Shown here: one piece after another, positions 46,446 to 53,192 of the stretch
Position numbering within the stretch: the stretch's first letter is position 1
Layout of the letters: each line of letters starts with the position of its first letter
Assembly: GCA_009838645.1 (NCBI GenBank)
Contig: VXRC01000017.1
Span: 1-64,000 of the forward strand
Direction: 5' to 3'
Source of the DNA: Gemmatimonadota bacterium
Lineage (GTDB): Bacteria; JAAXHH01
DNA: 64,000 bases
Translations under genes and position numbers: made by a program
The notes under the pieces: generated by a model
What the model was told of the DNA's origin: nothing
Seen by the model: only the letters and a program-made list of their open reading frames with translations
Databases searched by the model: none

Positions 46446-48176
46446 TCAGTGCTCACCGATGTAGACCTCGGTCCACATCAAGCTACCGACCGTGCCGTCG
46501 GGCCGCTTCGAGTACCCCTTCAACCAGGGCTTGCGCAGGCCGTAACCGATCGGATGGTATACGAATGCCCCGCCGTAGTCGGACACCAGGACCCGTTCGG
46601 CCTGTCTGTACATCTTCGTGCGCCTGGCGGGATCGGTTTCCCCGATTGCCCGGTCCACGAGATCGTCGAAGGCGGGATTCGTCCAGTCCTGGCGTTGCGC
46701 TCCCCGCGGCCGGGAATGCCAGGTCATGTCCAGCATATTCCTCGGGTCCAGGTAGTCCGCGCCCCAGGCGATGAATCCGAGGGGAATCCGCCAGTCGAAA
46801 AGGGCGCTCATGTAGGAACCCATGTCGGCGCTGCGGAAGGTGATGTTCACCCCGATATGATTACTCGACATCCCCTGGATCGCCTCGGCGATGCGGCGGG
46901 TGATGGGATTGGGCGCCCGCAGCCAAGTTTCGACGGTCGGGAATCCCCTTCCACGCGGGTAACCGGCCTCGGCCATGAGCTGCCTGGCCCGGTCCGGATC
47001 ATAGCCCTGCAACGGTTCATATTCCGGCCCCGCGTAGGCATCGAACCCGGGTGGTATCATGGAGTAGGCCGGGATGCCCGCGCCCTGGAGAATCACGCGG
47101 CAGATCGACTCGCGGTCGATGATCCGGGCAAATGCTTCCCTCACCCGAATGTCATTGAAGGGCGGTTCCAGGGTCCTGAAAATGAAGTACCAGGTCTGGT
47201 AACTCGGCGAACGGACGATCTCCTTGCCGAGCCGGGGGTCGCTCTGGATGCGCTGAAGCTCCGCCAGGTCGACCGCTTCCATGTCCACTTCGTCGTTCTC
47301 GTAGGGCAGGATATTGGCCGCCGCGGGCTCCCGGAACAGTTGGACGACCTGTTCCAGATAGGGTTTGTGGGGACCGTTGTACATGGGATCCGGCACGTAC
47401 TTGATATGGCTGCCGGAGATCCACTCGGCCATCTTGAAGCCGCTGTTGGTAACGATCTTGCCCTGCTCGGTCCATTTGCGGCCGTACTTCTCCACCGCCC
47501 AGCGCGGCGCGGGGAAGGTGTCCGGAAAGGATATGATGTACAGCAGGTAGGGCGTCGGCTGTTCGGTCTCGATGACCAGGGTCAGGTCGTCCAGCGCACG
47601 GACGCCCAGTTGCGCCAAGTCCTCGATCTGCCCCTGGTTGATCGCCCGGGCATTCTTGAAGTCGTAGTAGAAATTCGCGTAGATGTTCGCCGACGCGGGA
47701 TCGATGTTCCGCCGGAAGGTATACACGAAGTCGTGGGCGGTGACCGGTCGTCCGTCGCTCCACCGGGCGCCGGGACGCAGATAAAAGGTCCAGGACAGGC
47801 CGTCCTCGGACCGTTCGTAGCGCTCGGCGGCCCCCGGGACGGGCTGCATGAACTCATCGCGCCACATCAGCATTTCGAAGGGCCTCATCACCAGCCCCTC
47901 GTCATCATATGGATGGATGCCGGAGTCGATGCTGCGCGGCTCCATGTTCATCACGCGGAGGACCTGCCGGGACAGGGGAGCGGCATCGGGCGGCATGACC
48001 TTGCCCACCGAGTTCGTCAGCTGGTTCTGACCGGGCTGGCCGGACTGGCCGGGCTGACCGGGCTGGCCGGGCTGACCGGGCTGACCGGGCTGACCGGGCT
48101 GACCGGAGGATAGGGAGACGACGGCCAGGGTCGCCAGGCCGGCGATCAGGGGGACCAATAGACGCACCGGACACAT
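46446..48176 (-). CDS. Peptide ABC transporter substrate-binding protein with Gly-Gln-Pro linker (SBP family 5)
   Basis: Preferred start ATG 48176 gives a 576-residue protein: a signal (CPVRLLVPLIAGLATLAVV), then a Gly-Gln-Pro repeat segment, then TNSVGKVMPPDAAPLSRQVL and the family-5 core (WTFYLRPGARWSDGRPVTAHDF, ENDEVDMEAVDLAELQRIQ, PFNDIRVREAFARIIDRESI). A longer frame starts at 48254, but that stretch overlaps the attL copy and has no ribosome-binding site I trust. Without nearby permeases it is an orphan binding protein. The GQP linker probably extends the binding domain from the membrane (inference). Confidence 0.88.
   Translation of the reverse strand: MCPVRLLVPLIAGLATLAVVSLSSGQPGQPGQPGQPGQPGQPGQSGQPGQNQLTNSVGKVMPPDAAPLSRQVLRVMNMEPRSIDSGIHPYDDEGLVMRPFEMLMWRDEFMQPVPGAAERYERSEDGLSWTFYLRPGARWSDGRPVTAHDFVYTFRRNIDPASANIYANFYYDFKNARAINQGQIEDLAQLGVRALDDLTLVIETEQPTPYLLYIISFPDTFPAPRWAVEKYGRKWTEQGKIVTNSGFKMAEWISGSHIKYVPDPMYNGPHKPYLEQVVQLFREPAAANILPYENDEVDMEAVDLAELQRIQSDPRLGKEIVRSPSYQTWYFIFRTLEPPFNDIRVREAFARIIDRESICRVILQGAGIPAYSMIPPGFDAYAGPEYEPLQGYDPDRARQLMAEAGYPRGRGFPTVETWLRAPNPITRRIAEAIQGMSSNHIGVNITFRSADMGSYMSALFDWRIPLGFIAWGADYLDPRNMLDMTWHSRPRGAQRQDWTNPAFDDLVDRAIGETDPARRTKMYRQAERVLVSDYGGAFVYHPIGYGLRKPWLKGYSKRPDGTVGSLMWTEVYIGEH
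48027..48107. repeat. Nine 9-bp tandem repeats encoding Gly-Gln-Pro
   Basis: Units ctgaccggg or ctggccggg occur nine times in a row. On the coding strand they yield repeated Gly-Gln-Pro (one Gly-Gln-Ser) after the signal peptide. Confidence 0.95.
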
Positions 48177-48231
48177 AGGACGCCTTCCGGATGACGTGGA
48201 CGGATATGTAAATCGTGATTTGAGGTTGGAA

Positions 48232-48252
48232 TGCCGAAGCGCGGATTCGAAC
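48232..48252. repeat. attL: 21-bp copy of the tRNA-Leu 3' end
   Basis: It begins tgccgaagcgcgg and ends attcgaac; it is identical to 53109-53129. It marks the left boundary of the element. Confidence 0.95.
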
Positions 48253-48395
48253 AACTCCCGTAACCCGCTTTTGCCCTTTAGGTTACGTTTCTCGATAATA
48301 AACTTTTATAACGTTCGTTAATCCATGCTACGGCGAAGGCACTGTATTTGTAATGTAAAATCCCAGGCGGCATGGGGCAACCCTGAAAAAAGATG

Positions 48396-48456
48396 TTGAC
48401 TTGTCCATATTGTCATATTATTATGGACAGCAAGGACATCATGGACAATCAGGACA
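48396..48456 (+). promoter_or_regulatory. Strong promoter with palindrome and phased GGACA repeats
   Basis: TTGACT (48396-48401), a 17-base spacer and TATTAT (48419-48424) form a strong sigma-70-type promoter. An inverted repeat TGTCCATA (48402-48409) and TATGGACA (48422-48429) covers spacer and -10. GGACA recurs at 48425, 48434, 48443 and 48452, exactly nine bases apart. The promoter faces the 118-residue regulator-like gene and may be autoregulated (inference). Confidence 0.8.
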
Positions 48457-48479
48457 GACCCATATCAGGAGGAGATATC

Positions 48480-48836
48480 ATGGTACGGGAACAGCTTGTC
48501 ACCATCGACGCGGCTTCGTATCTGGTTGCTCGAGGCCGTGACGCGATTATCAAAGCTATGCAACGCGACCGAATCAAGAACGAGCATACGTTGAGAATCG
48601 GCGAAACATCGAAGGTAACGTTGCTGCCACTTTTTGAGGTCCTGAATTACTGGGCTGAGCAAGGCGTTCATAACTGGTTCAAGAGACGGTTAGAGGACAT
48701 CAAATGTACGAGTTTTGTTGTCACGACTGAAGAAGGCGAGTGGGAAATCTTTCCGGGTCAAATCGATATCTACTCCGCAGACATCCTGAGGGAAAGGCTC
48801 GAAAAAATGCGGGAGGCCGACAGTGAATCAAAGTGA
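48480..48836 (+). CDS. Small HTH-like protein, first gene of the element
   Basis: A 118-residue protein starting at ATG 48480, seven bases after AGGAGG; a longer frame at 48393 would run through the promoter. The N-terminal half (VTIDAASYLVARGRDAIIKAM, then QRDRIKNEHTLRIGETSKV) reads like an excisionase or MerR-type winged helix-turn-helix, but the match is loose. The C-terminal half (SFVVTTEEGEWEIFPGQIDI) is unrecognised. Located directly after a promoter with palindromic and phased repeats, it is a candidate autoregulator. It overlaps the AlpA-like gene by 14 bases. Confidence 0.65.
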   Translation: MVREQLVTIDAASYLVARGRDAIIKAMQRDRIKNEHTLRIGETSKVTLLPLFEVLNYWAEQGVHNWFKRRLEDIKCTSFVVTTEEGEWEIFPGQIDIYSADILRERLEKMREADSESK

Positions 48837-49005
48837 CCGGTTGCTTACGAGGGCTCAGGTCCAGGATCGCCTCGCTATTTCGCGGAGCACGTTGCTTCGC
48901 TGGGTAGAATCCGGCCGATTTCCAAAGCCGGTCAGACTCGGCGAGCGGAGCCTCCGATGGTACGAGGACGAGATCACGTCCTGGATCGACCGCCGAGGGT
49001 CGTAA
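48823..49005 (+). CDS. AlpA family phage-type regulator / excisionase-like protein
   Basis: A 60-residue protein with an AlpA-type helix-turn-helix: LLTRAQVQDRLAISRSTLLR, then WVESGRFPKPVRLGERSLRW and a C-terminal EDEITSWIDRR tail, the canonical AlpA sequence. The start is GTG 48823, preceded by GGGAGG. AlpA proteins activate excision or regulate integrase expression in P4-like elements, which fits its place within this tRNA-inserted element. It overlaps the preceding gene by 14 bases, so translation is likely coupled. Confidence 0.88.
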   Translation: MNQSDRLLTRAQVQDRLAISRSTLLRWVESGRFPKPVRLGERSLRWYEDEITSWIDRRGS

Positions 49006-49412
49006 GACGAAGTTTAGTAAGTGCAGTTCTGGCCATCCGGTGTCGGTGATCCGCGAGAGCTGGGCGTGCACGCGGGGCGGACGGCGGGCAGGTGGTCTTG
49101 ATCGAAGCCGATACCGTGAGGCGCTGAATTCGGCAGCCGCAGGCGAAGCAGGGAGCGGCAGCGGCGGGCCGGGAGGTCTCCGTCCAAGAGTCCCTGACCC
49201 CACAGGCAGACCATAAACTCGTCGTGTGGGGGCGTTCCGTCACTTGCATCTCGGAACGCGGATCCACCACGCGCACACGCGCGAAAAAAGGCTGTTGCGT
49301 CCGTCTTCCATGAGCAAAGAACTGACTCCCTCTATATACACTACAGTCCTTAGAGGGCAGGCAAATTTCGTGAATCACCGATATTTACCGATTCGGTGAA
49401 AGGAGAGGTACC
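49006..49412. promoter_or_regulatory. 407-bp spacer with a 7-bp inverted repeat before the DUF3102-like gene
   Basis: I see no convincing gene in this gap; the minus-strand frames here look like shadows. Near its right end TCACCGA (49375-49381) and TCGGTGA (49393-49399) form an inverted repeat with an 11-base centre, directly before the AGGAGAGG and ATG of the next gene. It may be an operator. Confidence 0.5.
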
Positions 49413-50006
49413 ATGAGCAGCTTGACGAAGATGGGTGAGATTGACCAGGCCGTGGATCGGAGCCTCAATGAATTGCGAAGCCTAGGCCGTCGCGCCGTCA
49501 AGGAGACGTATACTCTCGGCGTCTGGCTCACGAAGGCAAAGCGGGAACTACCTCACGGCGAGTTTTGGAAGTGGCACGAAGCGAAGCGGCTCACAAAGGA
49601 CCTGTTGGTCCGGGCCATGAAGCTAGCTCGCCAACAAGAGTCGCAAATTGCGACTCTTGAAACGGTCCAAGCCGCCCTCGAGGGAGCACCGAAACGCCTG
49701 ACGACGGTGGACAAGGCGGAGATGGAAAAGGCTGCCGTTCGGACGGAGATCGATGAACTGAAACGCCAGATCGCAGAGGCGAAGAAGGAGATCGCCGTGA
49801 TGGAGGCCAGGAGGCCGGACCTCTACGAAAAGGCCTGTGCTGTGAGCGGGAAGGAGGAGGTAGACCGTAACCTGACCAAGCTCGATGATATGCAGAAACG
49901 CCTCCGCGAGTGCCAGGCCGCATCACTTGAGGAGGCGAAGGAATTGGCCATAAAGGAGGAGGGAGCAAACCTACGGCGGCAGATTCGGAAACTCAAAGCA
50001 GCATGA
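49413..50006 (+). CDS. DUF3102-like coiled-coil protein
   Basis: A 197-residue protein. The N-terminal third resembles DUF3102-type phage or island proteins (LGRRAVKETYTLGVWL, LPHGEFWKWHEA), and the rest is a strongly charged heptad-like coiled coil (KAAVRTEIDELKRQIAEAKK onward). AGGAGAGG lies a few bases before ATG 49413. The function is not known; DUF3102 proteins are common on phages and plasmids. Its stop overlaps an ATG of the next frame, but the next gene more likely starts 33 bases later. Confidence 0.7.
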   Translation: MSSLTKMGEIDQAVDRSLNELRSLGRRAVKETYTLGVWLTKAKRELPHGEFWKWHEAKRLTKDLLVRAMKLARQQESQIATLETVQAALEGAPKRLTTVDKAEMEKAAVRTEIDELKRQIAEAKKEIAVMEARRPDLYEKACAVSGKEEVDRNLTKLDDMQKRLRECQAASLEEAKELAIKEEGANLRRQIRKLKAA

Positions 50007-50035
50007 CCATCATCAACATCACAAGGAGGATCAAG

Positions 50036-50311
50036 ATGCGACTTTCATGGATTGAAGAAAACGGCAATCGGCGTTACGATGATTTCGAGATCCGAGTAGA
50101 TCGAAATGAAACCAAAGCCTGGTTTCCGGAAAGCGATTCCGAACCTACGACTATAATCCGCAGTTACTATCGCTTGTTTCGCTGCATCAACCGCAGTCAG
50201 AGTATACCCTACACCCAGTATGAAAAGTACGCTTACCTGGTTGAGGAGATTACTGCGGAAGAGCGCGAACTATTCCGGAAATGGGTTGCGCAGGAAACAG
50301 AAGGAACGTAA
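50036..50311 (+). CDS. Small protein of unknown function
   Basis: A 91-residue protein beginning MRLSWIEENGNRRYDDF. Start ATG 50036 is preceded by AAGGAGG with seven bases spacing; the upstream ATG at 50003 would overlap the previous stop codon and has a poorer site. The protein is acidic and contains no motif I recognise. It is part of the plus-strand series of element genes with short spacing. Confidence 0.6.
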   Translation: MRLSWIEENGNRRYDDFEIRVDRNETKAWFPESDSEPTTIIRSYYRLFRCINRSQSIPYTQYEKYAYLVEEITAEERELFRKWVAQETEGT

Positions 50312-50345
50312 ACAACAACCCCTCTGAGCGTGGCGGAGCCGCAAG

Positions 50346-50654
50346 GTGCGCAAGTGCGCCGAACGCCAGACCGATATTTCGATGAGGCCGAATGCTGCGC
50401 GGTACTGCGAGGCATGCGCCTACGCCCGGCTATTACGGAGACAACGGACCGCCACTGTGAAATACCGTCAGACACGGCCCCGATTTGCATACTGCTCGGA
50501 GGATCAGTCCTTCGCCGACTGGCTGGACAGGCTGCTTTTCCAACGTCCCGTGCTGTCCCCTGACCTGAACCATGAGCAGGAAACTCGGCAGCCGTTCAAC
50601 TTTCCCGAATACCTGAGATACGTCAGGAAACTCCCTTATCCCGAAAGCCTTTAA
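50346..50654 (+). CDS. Small cysteine-containing protein, possible zinc-ribbon remnant
   Basis: A 102-residue frame starting at GTG 50346. The N-terminal segment KCAERQTDISMRPNAARYCE followed by ACAYARLLRRQR resembles the zinc-ribbon pattern of phage-type CxxC...CxxC proteins, except that the second cysteine of the first pair is replaced by Arg. No ribosome-binding site is obvious. The end overlaps the HEPN-like gene on the opposite strand by 32 bases (convergent). It may be real or decayed; a competing frame exists at 50330-50563. Confidence 0.45.
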   Translation: MRKCAERQTDISMRPNAARYCEACAYARLLRRQRTATVKYRQTRPRFAYCSEDQSFADWLDRLLFQRPVLSPDLNHEQETRQPFNFPEYLRYVRKLPYPESL

Positions 50655-51462
50655 CTTCCCATTCAAAATCGCGAAAGAGCTCCATATACTTACTCCGAGT
50701 TTCACTGTCTAATCTGGATAGATCCACATTGAATCTATCAAAAACTGAATTGGCGCGTCTATAGAATGGCGTATTCGGATTAATTTCCGAATCGACATGC
50801 GAACCTATAGTTAGAAGGAGTTCGATCCTTAGCCTTTCGTGAGCTAGGAAATCACCTGCCCCTGATTGATACACCAACGTGTTGAGGAAGTGAGTACCTG
50901 GTTCCATCTTTGCCAAAACGTAGTAAATGACTATACAGATACGTTTTAAAGCATGCTTTACTTCTATGATATTCAACGGCTTTAGTGGACTTGCAGATTC
51001 ATATGGTATCGTGGTATCACGATCATGATGTGCGATACGCTTATCTCGATGTTGTCTGGCGTACTTGGCCTTCTTTTTAGCCTTCTTTACGAGTTCATCC
51101 AACTTTTTTACCCACTCGGGATCTCTGAATCTATCAGGTATTTCACGGTTCTGGTCATCTTTAATGCGAAGTGGAAGAATTCGAATAGACAAGCATTCAT
51201 GTCCCCCCATTGTCGGTCTATCAGTTAATCGTGTTATGAAAAGTATCAAACTATCTTGCATGATTTGCTGGATGAGTCCGAAAAACCTACCTCCAATTGC
51301 ATTTAACATGTTTACGTCTTTTGGATTGCCAAACAATACTCTGTATTCCTCAAATAGAACCTGAGCGTCGTGGTAGTCGCAATACAAGCCATAAAACTCA
51401 TCACCAACATCTGAACCCAGCACTTCTCTAAATCGATCTCTAGTTTCTTGTCCTGAAATCAC
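50623..51462 (-). CDS. HEPN/AbiU2-like protein, candidate RNase toxin or abortive-infection protein
   Basis: A 279-residue, highly charged, helical protein. It carries RQHRDKRIAHHDRDT near residue 140, with Arg and His separated by five residues (R-D-K-R-I-A-H), in the R-x4-6-H range of HEPN RNases and close to the AbiU2-type motif with surrounding charged helices. The start is GTG 51462, five bases after TTAGGAGG. That site overlaps the stop region of the integrase pseudogene, so both were one transcript. GC is low for this genome. Toxicity or anti-phage activity is inference; no antitoxin partner is evident. Confidence 0.65.
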   Translation of the reverse strand: MISGQETRDRFREVLGSDVGDEFYGLYCDYHDAQVLFEEYRVLFGNPKDVNMLNAIGGRFFGLIQQIMQDSLILFITRLTDRPTMGGHECLSIRILPLRIKDDQNREIPDRFRDPEWVKKLDELVKKAKKKAKYARQHRDKRIAHHDRDTTIPYESASPLKPLNIIEVKHALKRICIVIYYVLAKMEPGTHFLNTLVYQSGAGDFLAHERLRIELLLTIGSHVDSEINPNTPFYRRANSVFDRFNVDLSRLDSETRSKYMELFRDFEWEVKGFRDKGVS

Positions 51463-51463
51463 T

Positions 51464-52615
51464 TTAACCTCCTAAGAAATCATCCCACGTCTGCATTAGC
51501 GTGGTACGCTTCTACAGTAAATCGCTTCTCGAATAGGCCCGTTCGACTGCGTTACCTACTTATGAGCAAGTGCCATCTCGCACACATCGCGGGGTACATC
51601 CGTACACTAGGACGCCCAGGTCCTGAAGGATGTACGGAAGCCATGTACGGTCGTCCTTTCCCATAGACCGATCTGTTTCAATGCCTTAACCAGCGCCGCG
51701 CTTGTCATAGGCTGATGAGGGCTAACAGACGAAGGGGAATACCAGGCTGGAATCATTGCGAAGCGGTTTTGCCCGTTCAAGCACCGACAACGCGGATCGG
51801 GAAAGCGAAACGCGGTGTGGTTTGTCGGCCATCATCCGTTCTTTCGGGATCACCCAGATTGCCGTTTCAAGGTCGATCTCTCTCCACAGGGCGCCCCTTG
51901 CTTCAACGGTCCTTGAAGCCGTGTAAATCACGAACAGGATACACAGCTTCGACGGCAGGGACGATATCTCCGTTTCAATGGACTTCACCGCGGCGGGCAA
52001 TTCTCGGTAATCAATGGCCCGGTAGTTTTCCTTCACCTTTGGCATGGCGGGTAATGCGGTTTTGAATGGTTTGTCCGCGACGTTCTGCTGGACAAAACAA
52101 TGCTCCCTGCGCCAGTCCAGAATGGCACGGATTCGGCGCCGGACACGGCGACCGGTCTCCGGCTTGGAGGTCCAGATGGGTTTCAGGATTTCGAGCAGGT
52201 GGTCTTCGGTGATCCGGTCGACCGTAATGTTGCCTATCTTCGGGTAGGCGTACTTTTCAATAGCTTGAAGCCACATTTTTTCCGTATGGCGAGACTTCCA
52301 CGTGGGTTTCAGTGATTCGTAGGTATTGATTGCCGCATCTTTAAAGGTCAGCAACTGTGCCCGTTGTTTTTCGATAAGGGGATGTTTACCCTAACGGACC
52401 AGCCTTCGATTGTCCAGGGCCTGATCTCGAGCTTCGGAGAGGGTTACAACAGGGTAGGGACCGAGGCTCATGTTGACGCGGCGGCCGTCAACGACAATCC
52501 GCTGGACCCAGCTTTTTCTCCCAGTGTCTTTCACGCACAGGTATAACGTATCGTCGGCGCGAAAGAATCCGGGCTTCGAGATCGTCTTGCACTGTGCTGC
52601 GTTCAGTCTTCGCAT
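51464..52615 (-). pseudogene. P4-type tyrosine integrase, disrupted
   Basis: Reading minus-strand from 52615: an Arm/DUF4102 domain (LSEARDQAL), then a SAM-like core-binding domain and a catalytic domain. Disruptions are TAG at 52393-52391 in place of the usual Glu in VREGK, a one-base insertion near 51731-51737 after LVFP, TAG at 51609-51607 in WAS-CTDVP, a one-base deletion after ALAHK near 51560, and TAG at 51514-51512 in SDLL-KR. Stitching the frames restores a full integrase with the catalytic Arg, HGFR, ALAH and the AYSRSD tyrosine. The reconstructed stop TAA is at 51466-51464. Confidence 0.85.
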
Positions 52616-52627
52616 GTGTATATCCCC

Positions 52628-52906
52628 TTATGCCCCATACTGTCTGAATCCCCGGATCACCCAAGCCACTCCCATGCCGAAGAAGTACAGGAACAACCAG
52701 GCAATCACAAAAACCATGAACACCTTGATCCCCTCCCAGGGTCTGAATATCGGTGTCGGATCGCCCGTTTCAGGCTGGGTAAGTGATCGAATGACTTGAT
52801 CGAAGTCAACAACCCACATTTCATTATATCCCGCTACTGCGCCGATAATGATCCAGAATATGCCCAAAAATACCCATAACCGCTGCCAACCGTGAAGTTT
52901 CCTCAT
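52628..52906 (-). CDS. Small membrane protein, unknown
   Basis: A 92-residue protein with two probable membrane helices (LWVFLGIFWIIIGAVAGY and VFMVFVIAWLFLYFFGMG) and a polar loop between them. A longer frame starts at 52930, but the preferred ATG is 52906, preceded by AGGGGG. That site sits in the loop of an 8-bp hairpin (52908-52929). It lies between the integrase and tRNA-Leu. I do not recognise the family. Other possibilities are a superinfection-immunity-like or toxin-like small membrane protein; no direct evidence. Confidence 0.55.
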   Translation of the reverse strand: MRKLHGWQRLWVFLGIFWIIIGAVAGYNEMWVVDFDQVIRSLTQPETGDPTPIFRPWEGIKVFMVFVIAWLFLYFFGMGVAWVIRGFRQYGA

Positions 52907-52907
52907 G

Positions 52908-52929
52908 TGTACAAATCCCCCTTTGTACA
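52908..52929 (-). promoter_or_regulatory. Perfect 8-bp hairpin with Shine-Dalgarno in its loop
   Basis: TGTACAAA (52908-52915) and TTTGTACA (52922-52929) flank a six-base loop. On the minus strand the loop supplies the AGGGGG ribosome-binding site of the small membrane protein, so folding could influence its translation, or the palindrome could bind a protein. Confidence 0.6.
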
Positions 52930-53024
52930 AAAATAAAATCGGCGGACTCTAACCCGTCATTAACCTATTTATTATAACATATAAAACGGGATGTTATGAC
53001 ACATTGAGAAACCGAAAAATCCAC

Positions 53025-53063
53025 AAAAAAACGCCGGAACGCCTGTGGTGTAGGCTTCCGGCG
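53025..53063 (-). terminator. Rho-independent terminator downstream of tRNA-Leu
   Basis: CGCCGGAA at 53032-53039 pairs with TTCCGGCG at 53056-53063, with an inner GCCT/AGGC stem. A run of seven A (53025-53031) on the plus strand gives the T-tract on the minus strand. It would stop tRNA-Leu transcription before the element's genes. Confidence 0.8.
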
Positions 53064-53108
53064 GTACTCTATGAATCACTGTGGCATTTTATGGTTCGAT
53101 GCCGTAAG

Positions 53109-53192
53109 TGCCGAAGCGCGGATTCGAACCGCGACGGGATTTCTCCCACTGCCCCCTCAAGACAGCGTGTCTACCAATTCCACCACTTCGGC
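53109..53192 (-). tRNA. tRNA-Leu (GAG anticodon)
   Basis: On the minus strand an 84-base class II tRNA folds: acceptor GCCGAAG/CTTCGGC, anticodon stem CTGTC/GGCAG with loop TTGAGGG (anticodon GAG, codons CUC/CUU), a long variable arm with GGGA/TCCC stem, and T-arm CGCGG-TTCGAAT-CCGCG. No CCA is encoded. Its 3' part (53109-53129) is the attR copy of the element's 21-bp repeat. In E. coli a leucine tRNA with the same anticodon follows secG, as here. Confidence 0.95.

Follow-up and report, generated by a model that had tools for sequence, protein, structure and literature searches.

Results

Between a peptide-type ABC substrate-binding protein gene and an intact tRNA-Leu(GAG) gene, the window, by which we mean the whole 64-kb stretch of DNA analysed, contains a 4.9-kb element with rightward genes at its left side, an AlpA-family gene among them, and with a HEPN gene of the AbiU2 family, the pieces of a P4-type tyrosine integrase and a small membrane protein gene on the other strand (Table 1). 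The AlpA, integrase and AbiU2 sequences all lie between two exact copies of the 21-mer TGCCGAAGCGCGGATTCGAAC, the only two in the window, which start 4,877 bp from each other; the right-hand one forms the 3' terminus of the tRNA gene, on the complement strand. The number of exact 21-bp matches expected by chance in 64 kb, counting both strands, is about 1e-7. The G+C content of the element is 0.512, versus 0.64 and 0.63 in its two flanks, and the only Rfam match above threshold was the tRNA itself (RF00005, at 53109-53192).

Table 1. Features of the tRNA-Leu(GAG) element and of its borders; positions are those of the window.
Feature	Position	Strand	Support
ABC substrate-binding protein gene, peptide-type, flanking host gene	46446-48176	-	55 bp from left repeat
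21-bp attachment repeat, distal side, displaced tRNA fragment	48232-48252		exact repeat
Predicted regulatory region: promoter-like site, inverted repeat and GGACA array	48396-48456	+	
118-aa protein, no family assigned	48480-48836	+	open frame
AlpA-family regulator/excisionase, 60 aa, overlaps preceding gene	48823-49005	+	PF05930 1.1e-14, above cut-off
197-aa protein, predicted long helices, no family assigned	49413-50006	+	
102-aa protein, overlaps 197-aa gene by 4 nt	50003-50311	+	open frame
HEPN AbiU2-family protein, 279 aa, intact	50623-51462	-	PF18734 3.4e-16
P4-type tyrosine integrase pseudogene	51464-52615	-	comparison with intact L060 integrase and frame table
Small predicted membrane protein, 93 aa, between tRNA and integrase	52628-52909	-	open frame
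tRNA-Leu(GAG), intact, integration target, regenerated by insertion	53108-53192	-	ARAGORN; Rfam RF00005; synteny in 10 congeners
21-bp attachment repeat, tRNA side (T-arm to tRNA 3' end)	53109-53129		exact match to 48232-48252

The rightward genes of the left side form a predicted operon, headed by a promoter-like site (TTGACT-17-TATTAT, 48396-48424), just after which come the inverted repeat TGTCCATA/TATGGACA and four GGACA motifs at 9-bp spacing (48425, 48434, 48443 and 48452). Such an array appeared in 0 of 20,000 shuffles, a figure to be read with the motif having been picked after it was seen; lying ahead of the alpA operon, it is possibly an operator or iteron array, and by itself the array (48425-48456) is not evidence of an origin. 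For the 118-aa protein we preferred the start at 48480 over the frame opening at 48393 because AGGAGG precedes the former; this protein showed no family above cut-off in Pfam, PADLOC, PHROG or NCBIfam and no relative in 15 other genomes of the phylum, in plasmids or in IMG/VR. The AlpA protein also matches the PHROG excisionase/regulator group, and the PADLOC call of mad1 for its gene was set aside as a regulator resemblance, the NCBIfam mad1 model scoring 16 bits against a cut-off of 80. After a gap of 407 bp follows the 197-aa protein, with weak similarity to PHROG 6146 and DUF3102, below cut-off in both cases, and with no relative in the 15 other phylum genomes, phages, plasmids or IMG/VR; the PADLOC calls of LmuB and PbeC for its gene reflect coiled-coil resemblance and were not accepted. 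The 102-aa protein matched no family in Pfam, PADLOC, PHROG or NCBIfam, and the 93-aa membrane protein had no relative in the 15 other phylum genomes.

The insertion itself was examined in the congeners, that is, in other genomes of the same genus of Candidatus Latescibacterota. The gene order pfkA-tpiA-secG is kept in 11 of them, and in the 10 whose contig reaches that far it is followed by tRNA-Leu(GAG), with a single copy of the 21-mer within the fetched stretch in each of these 10 readable congeners and with no match to any element protein at the tRNA-Leu site. The original prediction of a 4.9-kb element integrated at tRNA-Leu with exact 21-bp boundaries is therefore borne out by exact repeats and by the empty sites, with one 21-bp copy each, that it had proposed to look for in relatives (10/10), and the case that would have spoken against it, namely a relative with the element genes at this site and no repeat, was not found among the readable congeners.

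The left flank tells the same story. In nine congeners, a substrate-binding gene 61-70% identical to the one in Table 1 adjoins the tRNA across a short spacer, and L038, the tenth, has another substrate-binding gene there, behind a spacer of the same type. When the 55 nt past the left repeat (48177-48231) were compared with the sequence immediately beyond the tRNA in the empty congeners, identities of 67-84% were obtained, the best match being L040 with 84% over 55 nt, and for every congener this exceeded the best of 200 shuffles; the element-side bases at the tRNA copy gave 51-62%, which is the shuffle level. This pattern is the one expected of an element that went in between the tRNA and its neighbour, the substrate-binding gene. 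The insertion at the tRNA-Leu(GAG) 3' end is genuine and site-specific. The substrate-binding gene, now 4.9 kb away from the tRNA, may rely on a different promoter. Near its 5' end, a 9-bp tandem repeat (48027-48115 of the window) encodes a Gly-Gln-Pro-rich stretch after the signal peptide.

The integrase reads away from the tRNA, and its domains are found on consecutive pieces, namely the arm-binding (PF13356), central (PF22022) and catalytic (PF00589) domains. Called against the intact congeneric integrases L060 and L061 (379-415 aa), its lesions are three TAG codons, at 52391-52393, 51607-51609 and 51512-51514, and two frameshifts, near 51731-51739 and near 51560-51567. The conceptual protein retains 49% identity to L060 over its conceptual length (E 1e-127), and the catalytic segments HGFR and AYSRS are still recognisable, in different frames. 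Hence, of the P4-type integrase that had been predicted, the family domains are present but the gene is not intact. The housekeeping frames next to it are intact, and five lesions in 1.15 kb beside such frames make random assembly error an unlikely cause. Judged from its reading frames, the integrase is a multiply broken pseudogene; a broken integrase leaves the island unable to mobilise or excise by its own integrase, and the island is fixed unless another integrase acts in trans.

Directly behind the integrase stop begins the AbiU2 gene, with a GTG start (TAAAGTG) preceded by AGGAGG, so that its ribosome-binding site lies inside the end of the integrase sequence. The PF18734 match reaches 59.7 bits against a cut-off of 26.8, and the RX4-6H motif is present as R139-x5-H145, invariant in three congeneric homologues; the homologues, from two congeners (50% and 47-48% identity), lie in other neighbourhoods. 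The structure model, of low confidence (pLDDT 45), is all-helical. It stands alone, with no AbiU1, Sel1 or restriction gene as a neighbour. No model of PADLOC or NCBIfam recognises the gene, no relatives were found in IMG/VR, and the weak partial matches were to two plasmids of Xanthomonas (33% identity) and to an 11-kb phage record that carries no annotation (29%). Six abortive-infection families of Lactococcus, AbiU2 among them, have been described as HEPN domains, with a predicted RNase activity (PMC3710099), and the likeliest function of the protein, going by its HEPN family only, would be to cleave RNA as part of an abortive response against phage. The original prediction had also raised a defence-type island, and this idea keeps its plausibility through one AbiU2-family HEPN gene and goes no further, because that gene is the sole defence-like one and PADLOC does not recognise it.

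In the genus there are five AlpA matches above 45 bits, all near a P4-type integrase. Two of these loci (L061:3005-5390 and L063:6593-8777) have the order int-X-alpA directly beside tRNA-Met(CAT); their X proteins, neither of which has a Pfam family, share 63% identity over 122 aa, in L061 there is a 4-nt overlap of X with int, as with iolg of PICMI (PMC10803314), and the L063 integrase is also broken. No attachment repeat of at least 9 bp was found within 4 kb of these tRNA-Met siblings. In the congener G009, a 9.2-kb element (L060:1153-10420) is bounded by tRNA-Asn(GTT) and by a 12-bp repeat of the end of that tRNA, carrying genes for AlpA, an HNH protein, a terminase large subunit, an S78 prohead protease, a portal-like protein and a P4-type integrase, and it resembles a capsid-forming satellite or a prophage remnant; beside its integrase, a DUF6361 gene and a large SF2 helicase gene (L060:10605-16784) make up a possible defence system. 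At L065:1529-10615, adjoining two tRNA-Lys genes, an AbiU2 homologue stands beside an MNT nucleotidyltransferase, a C5 cytosine methylase, a Vsr-like gene and a GHKL ATPase, and this locus is likely a defence island. A 5.4-kb contig of the same assembly as the island (L064) has another integrase, 31% identical, together with AlpA, and is possibly contamination.

Discussion

Very probably, the locus is a degenerate small integrative tDNA island which was once inserted at tRNA-Leu(GAG), whose integrase has decayed and whose AbiU2 HEPN cargo is intact; perhaps it was once an AlpA-type satellite. In such a history, a tyrosine integrase would have recombined a 21-bp attP with the identical 3' end of tRNA-Leu(GAG), keeping the tRNA whole and displacing the 21-bp fragment by 4.9 kb, to the side of the substrate-binding gene that once abutted the tRNA, as the empty sites show. 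The recombinase, to judge by its type and position, would have been the island's own P4-type integrase, which later decayed through the three stop codons and the two frameshifts. By its family, AlpA may have served as excisionase or activator, the roles that AlpA has in PICI and in PICMI (for PICMI, PMC10803314). The AbiU2 gene has kept its open frame, ribosome-binding site and RX4-6H motif and, as a HEPN family member, might cleave RNA upon phage infection.

As for the origin of this cargo, the AbiU2 gene could have been acquired separately into an already resident island, since its G+C content is 0.411 versus 0.54 for the remaining genes, int and alpA included, and since other congeners carry AbiU2 near other genes and without the island's integrase. 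However, the gene is joined in register to the stop codon of int, and the TAAAGTG junction, together with the ribosome-binding site inside int, suggests an established int operon. We regard a composite origin as a possibility that is somewhat unlikely.

It is improbable, to a much greater degree, that we are dealing with a minimal, AlpA-regulated phage satellite similar to PICI or PICMI and still mobile with the aid of a helper phage and of an integrase in trans. The island's small size and its pairing of AlpA with a P4-type integrase at a tRNA would suit such an element, as would the int-X-alpA order kept in congeners with an intact integrase, X overlapping int by 4 nt as in the int-iolg-alpA of PICMI (PMC10803314), and the related integrase that one congener carries in an element alongside terminase, protease and portal genes, but the island's integrase is multiply broken, neither a primase nor a packaging-family gene was found in it with Pfam, PHROG and NCBIfam, and the only other P4-type integrase of its own genome is just 31% identical and sits on the 5.4-kb, possibly foreign, contig.

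Least credible of all is an active element whose integrase would work by TAG readthrough plus programmed frameshifting, or would seem broken through assembly errors. In its favour, each of the in-frame stops is a TAG, and the flanking frames are still conserved with the homologue. On the other side, the two frameshifts led us to reject readthrough, the ends of long frames show no clear avoidance of TAG (it terminates 19 of the 48 in the window, by the mechanical frame list), and for two of the three TAG codons the homologue has Glu, so that a single base change from GAG accounts for them.

Taken as a degenerate tDNA island, the locus gives a cleanly dated sequence of events for a phylum without cultured members, a precise tRNA insertion followed by the loss of the integrase, with the frame of a defence-like cargo still open, and exact boundaries with empty sites are now given for Latescibacterota. 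Among publications naming both Latescibacter and prophage, titles and abstract openings mention nothing on the mobile elements of this phylum. Our understanding of tRNA islands is unchanged by this one, and the side elements of the congeners, that is, the tRNA-Met mini-islands and the tRNA-Asn element, are more interesting than the tRNA-Leu island. We would even speculate, while holding it to be rather unlikely, that very small AlpA/P4-integrase islands at tRNA genes make up a lineage peculiar to Latescibacterota and may be satellites of helper phages yet to be recognised, the int-coupled gene being able to be an excision partner or a HEPN defence gene; the forms of this lineage would be int-X-alpA at tRNA-Met, int-AbiU2 at tRNA-Leu and the terminase- and portal-bearing one at tRNA-Asn.

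Comparison with Known Elements

Gram-negative PICIs are characterised by phage-dependent induction and packaging into phage particles, and have a replication module (pri/rep) and a conserved origin; in the island, no primase or other replication family was detected with Pfam, PHROG and NCBIfam. The PICMI family, in which anti-phage cargo is known, has int, alpA and primase colocalised next to fis (PMC10803314). Our island is similar to PICMI in being a small AlpA and integrase element with a gene directly behind int, but it is without the mandatory primase, it sits at tRNA-Leu and not at fis, its int is broken, its alpA is at the far end in the opposite orientation, and its host is not a Vibrio (PMC10803314); the absence of primase and fis places it outside the PICMI definition.

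P4-like satellites have seven components, of which at most two may be missing (PMC8628076). The island shares with them a P4-type integrase and an AlpA homologue, whereas none of alpha, psu, sid, delta and epsilon is here (PMC8628076). Neither primase nor packaging nor capsid genes were found between the repeats (Pfam, PHROG, NCBIfam), so that int, which is broken, and alpA are its only P4-like components, the rest having no family match. With just two such components, one of them broken, the island is not a P4-like satellite, and this suggestion of the original prediction, with the alpha primase, psu, sid, delta and epsilon missing and no packaging or capsid family between the repeats, is not supported.

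The closest likeness is to the tDNA islands of the Islander class (PMC4383910), given that the tRNA is intact, a 3' tRNA fragment lies downstream in the same orientation, a tyrosine-integrase sequence lies between them, the length is above 2 kb and the attachment site is of the T-stem/3'-end type. Unlike those islands, which have a 13.6-kb mode in length (PMC4383910), this one is far below it with 4.9 kb, and its integrase frame is broken where a putatively active, intact frame is asked for. What it does have is the displaced 3' fragment, the single-copy empty site and the tyrosine integrase sequence, the latter as a pseudogene. In summary, we place it outside the P4-like and PICMI families, as a degenerate tDNA island whose ancestor may have been an AlpA-type satellite.
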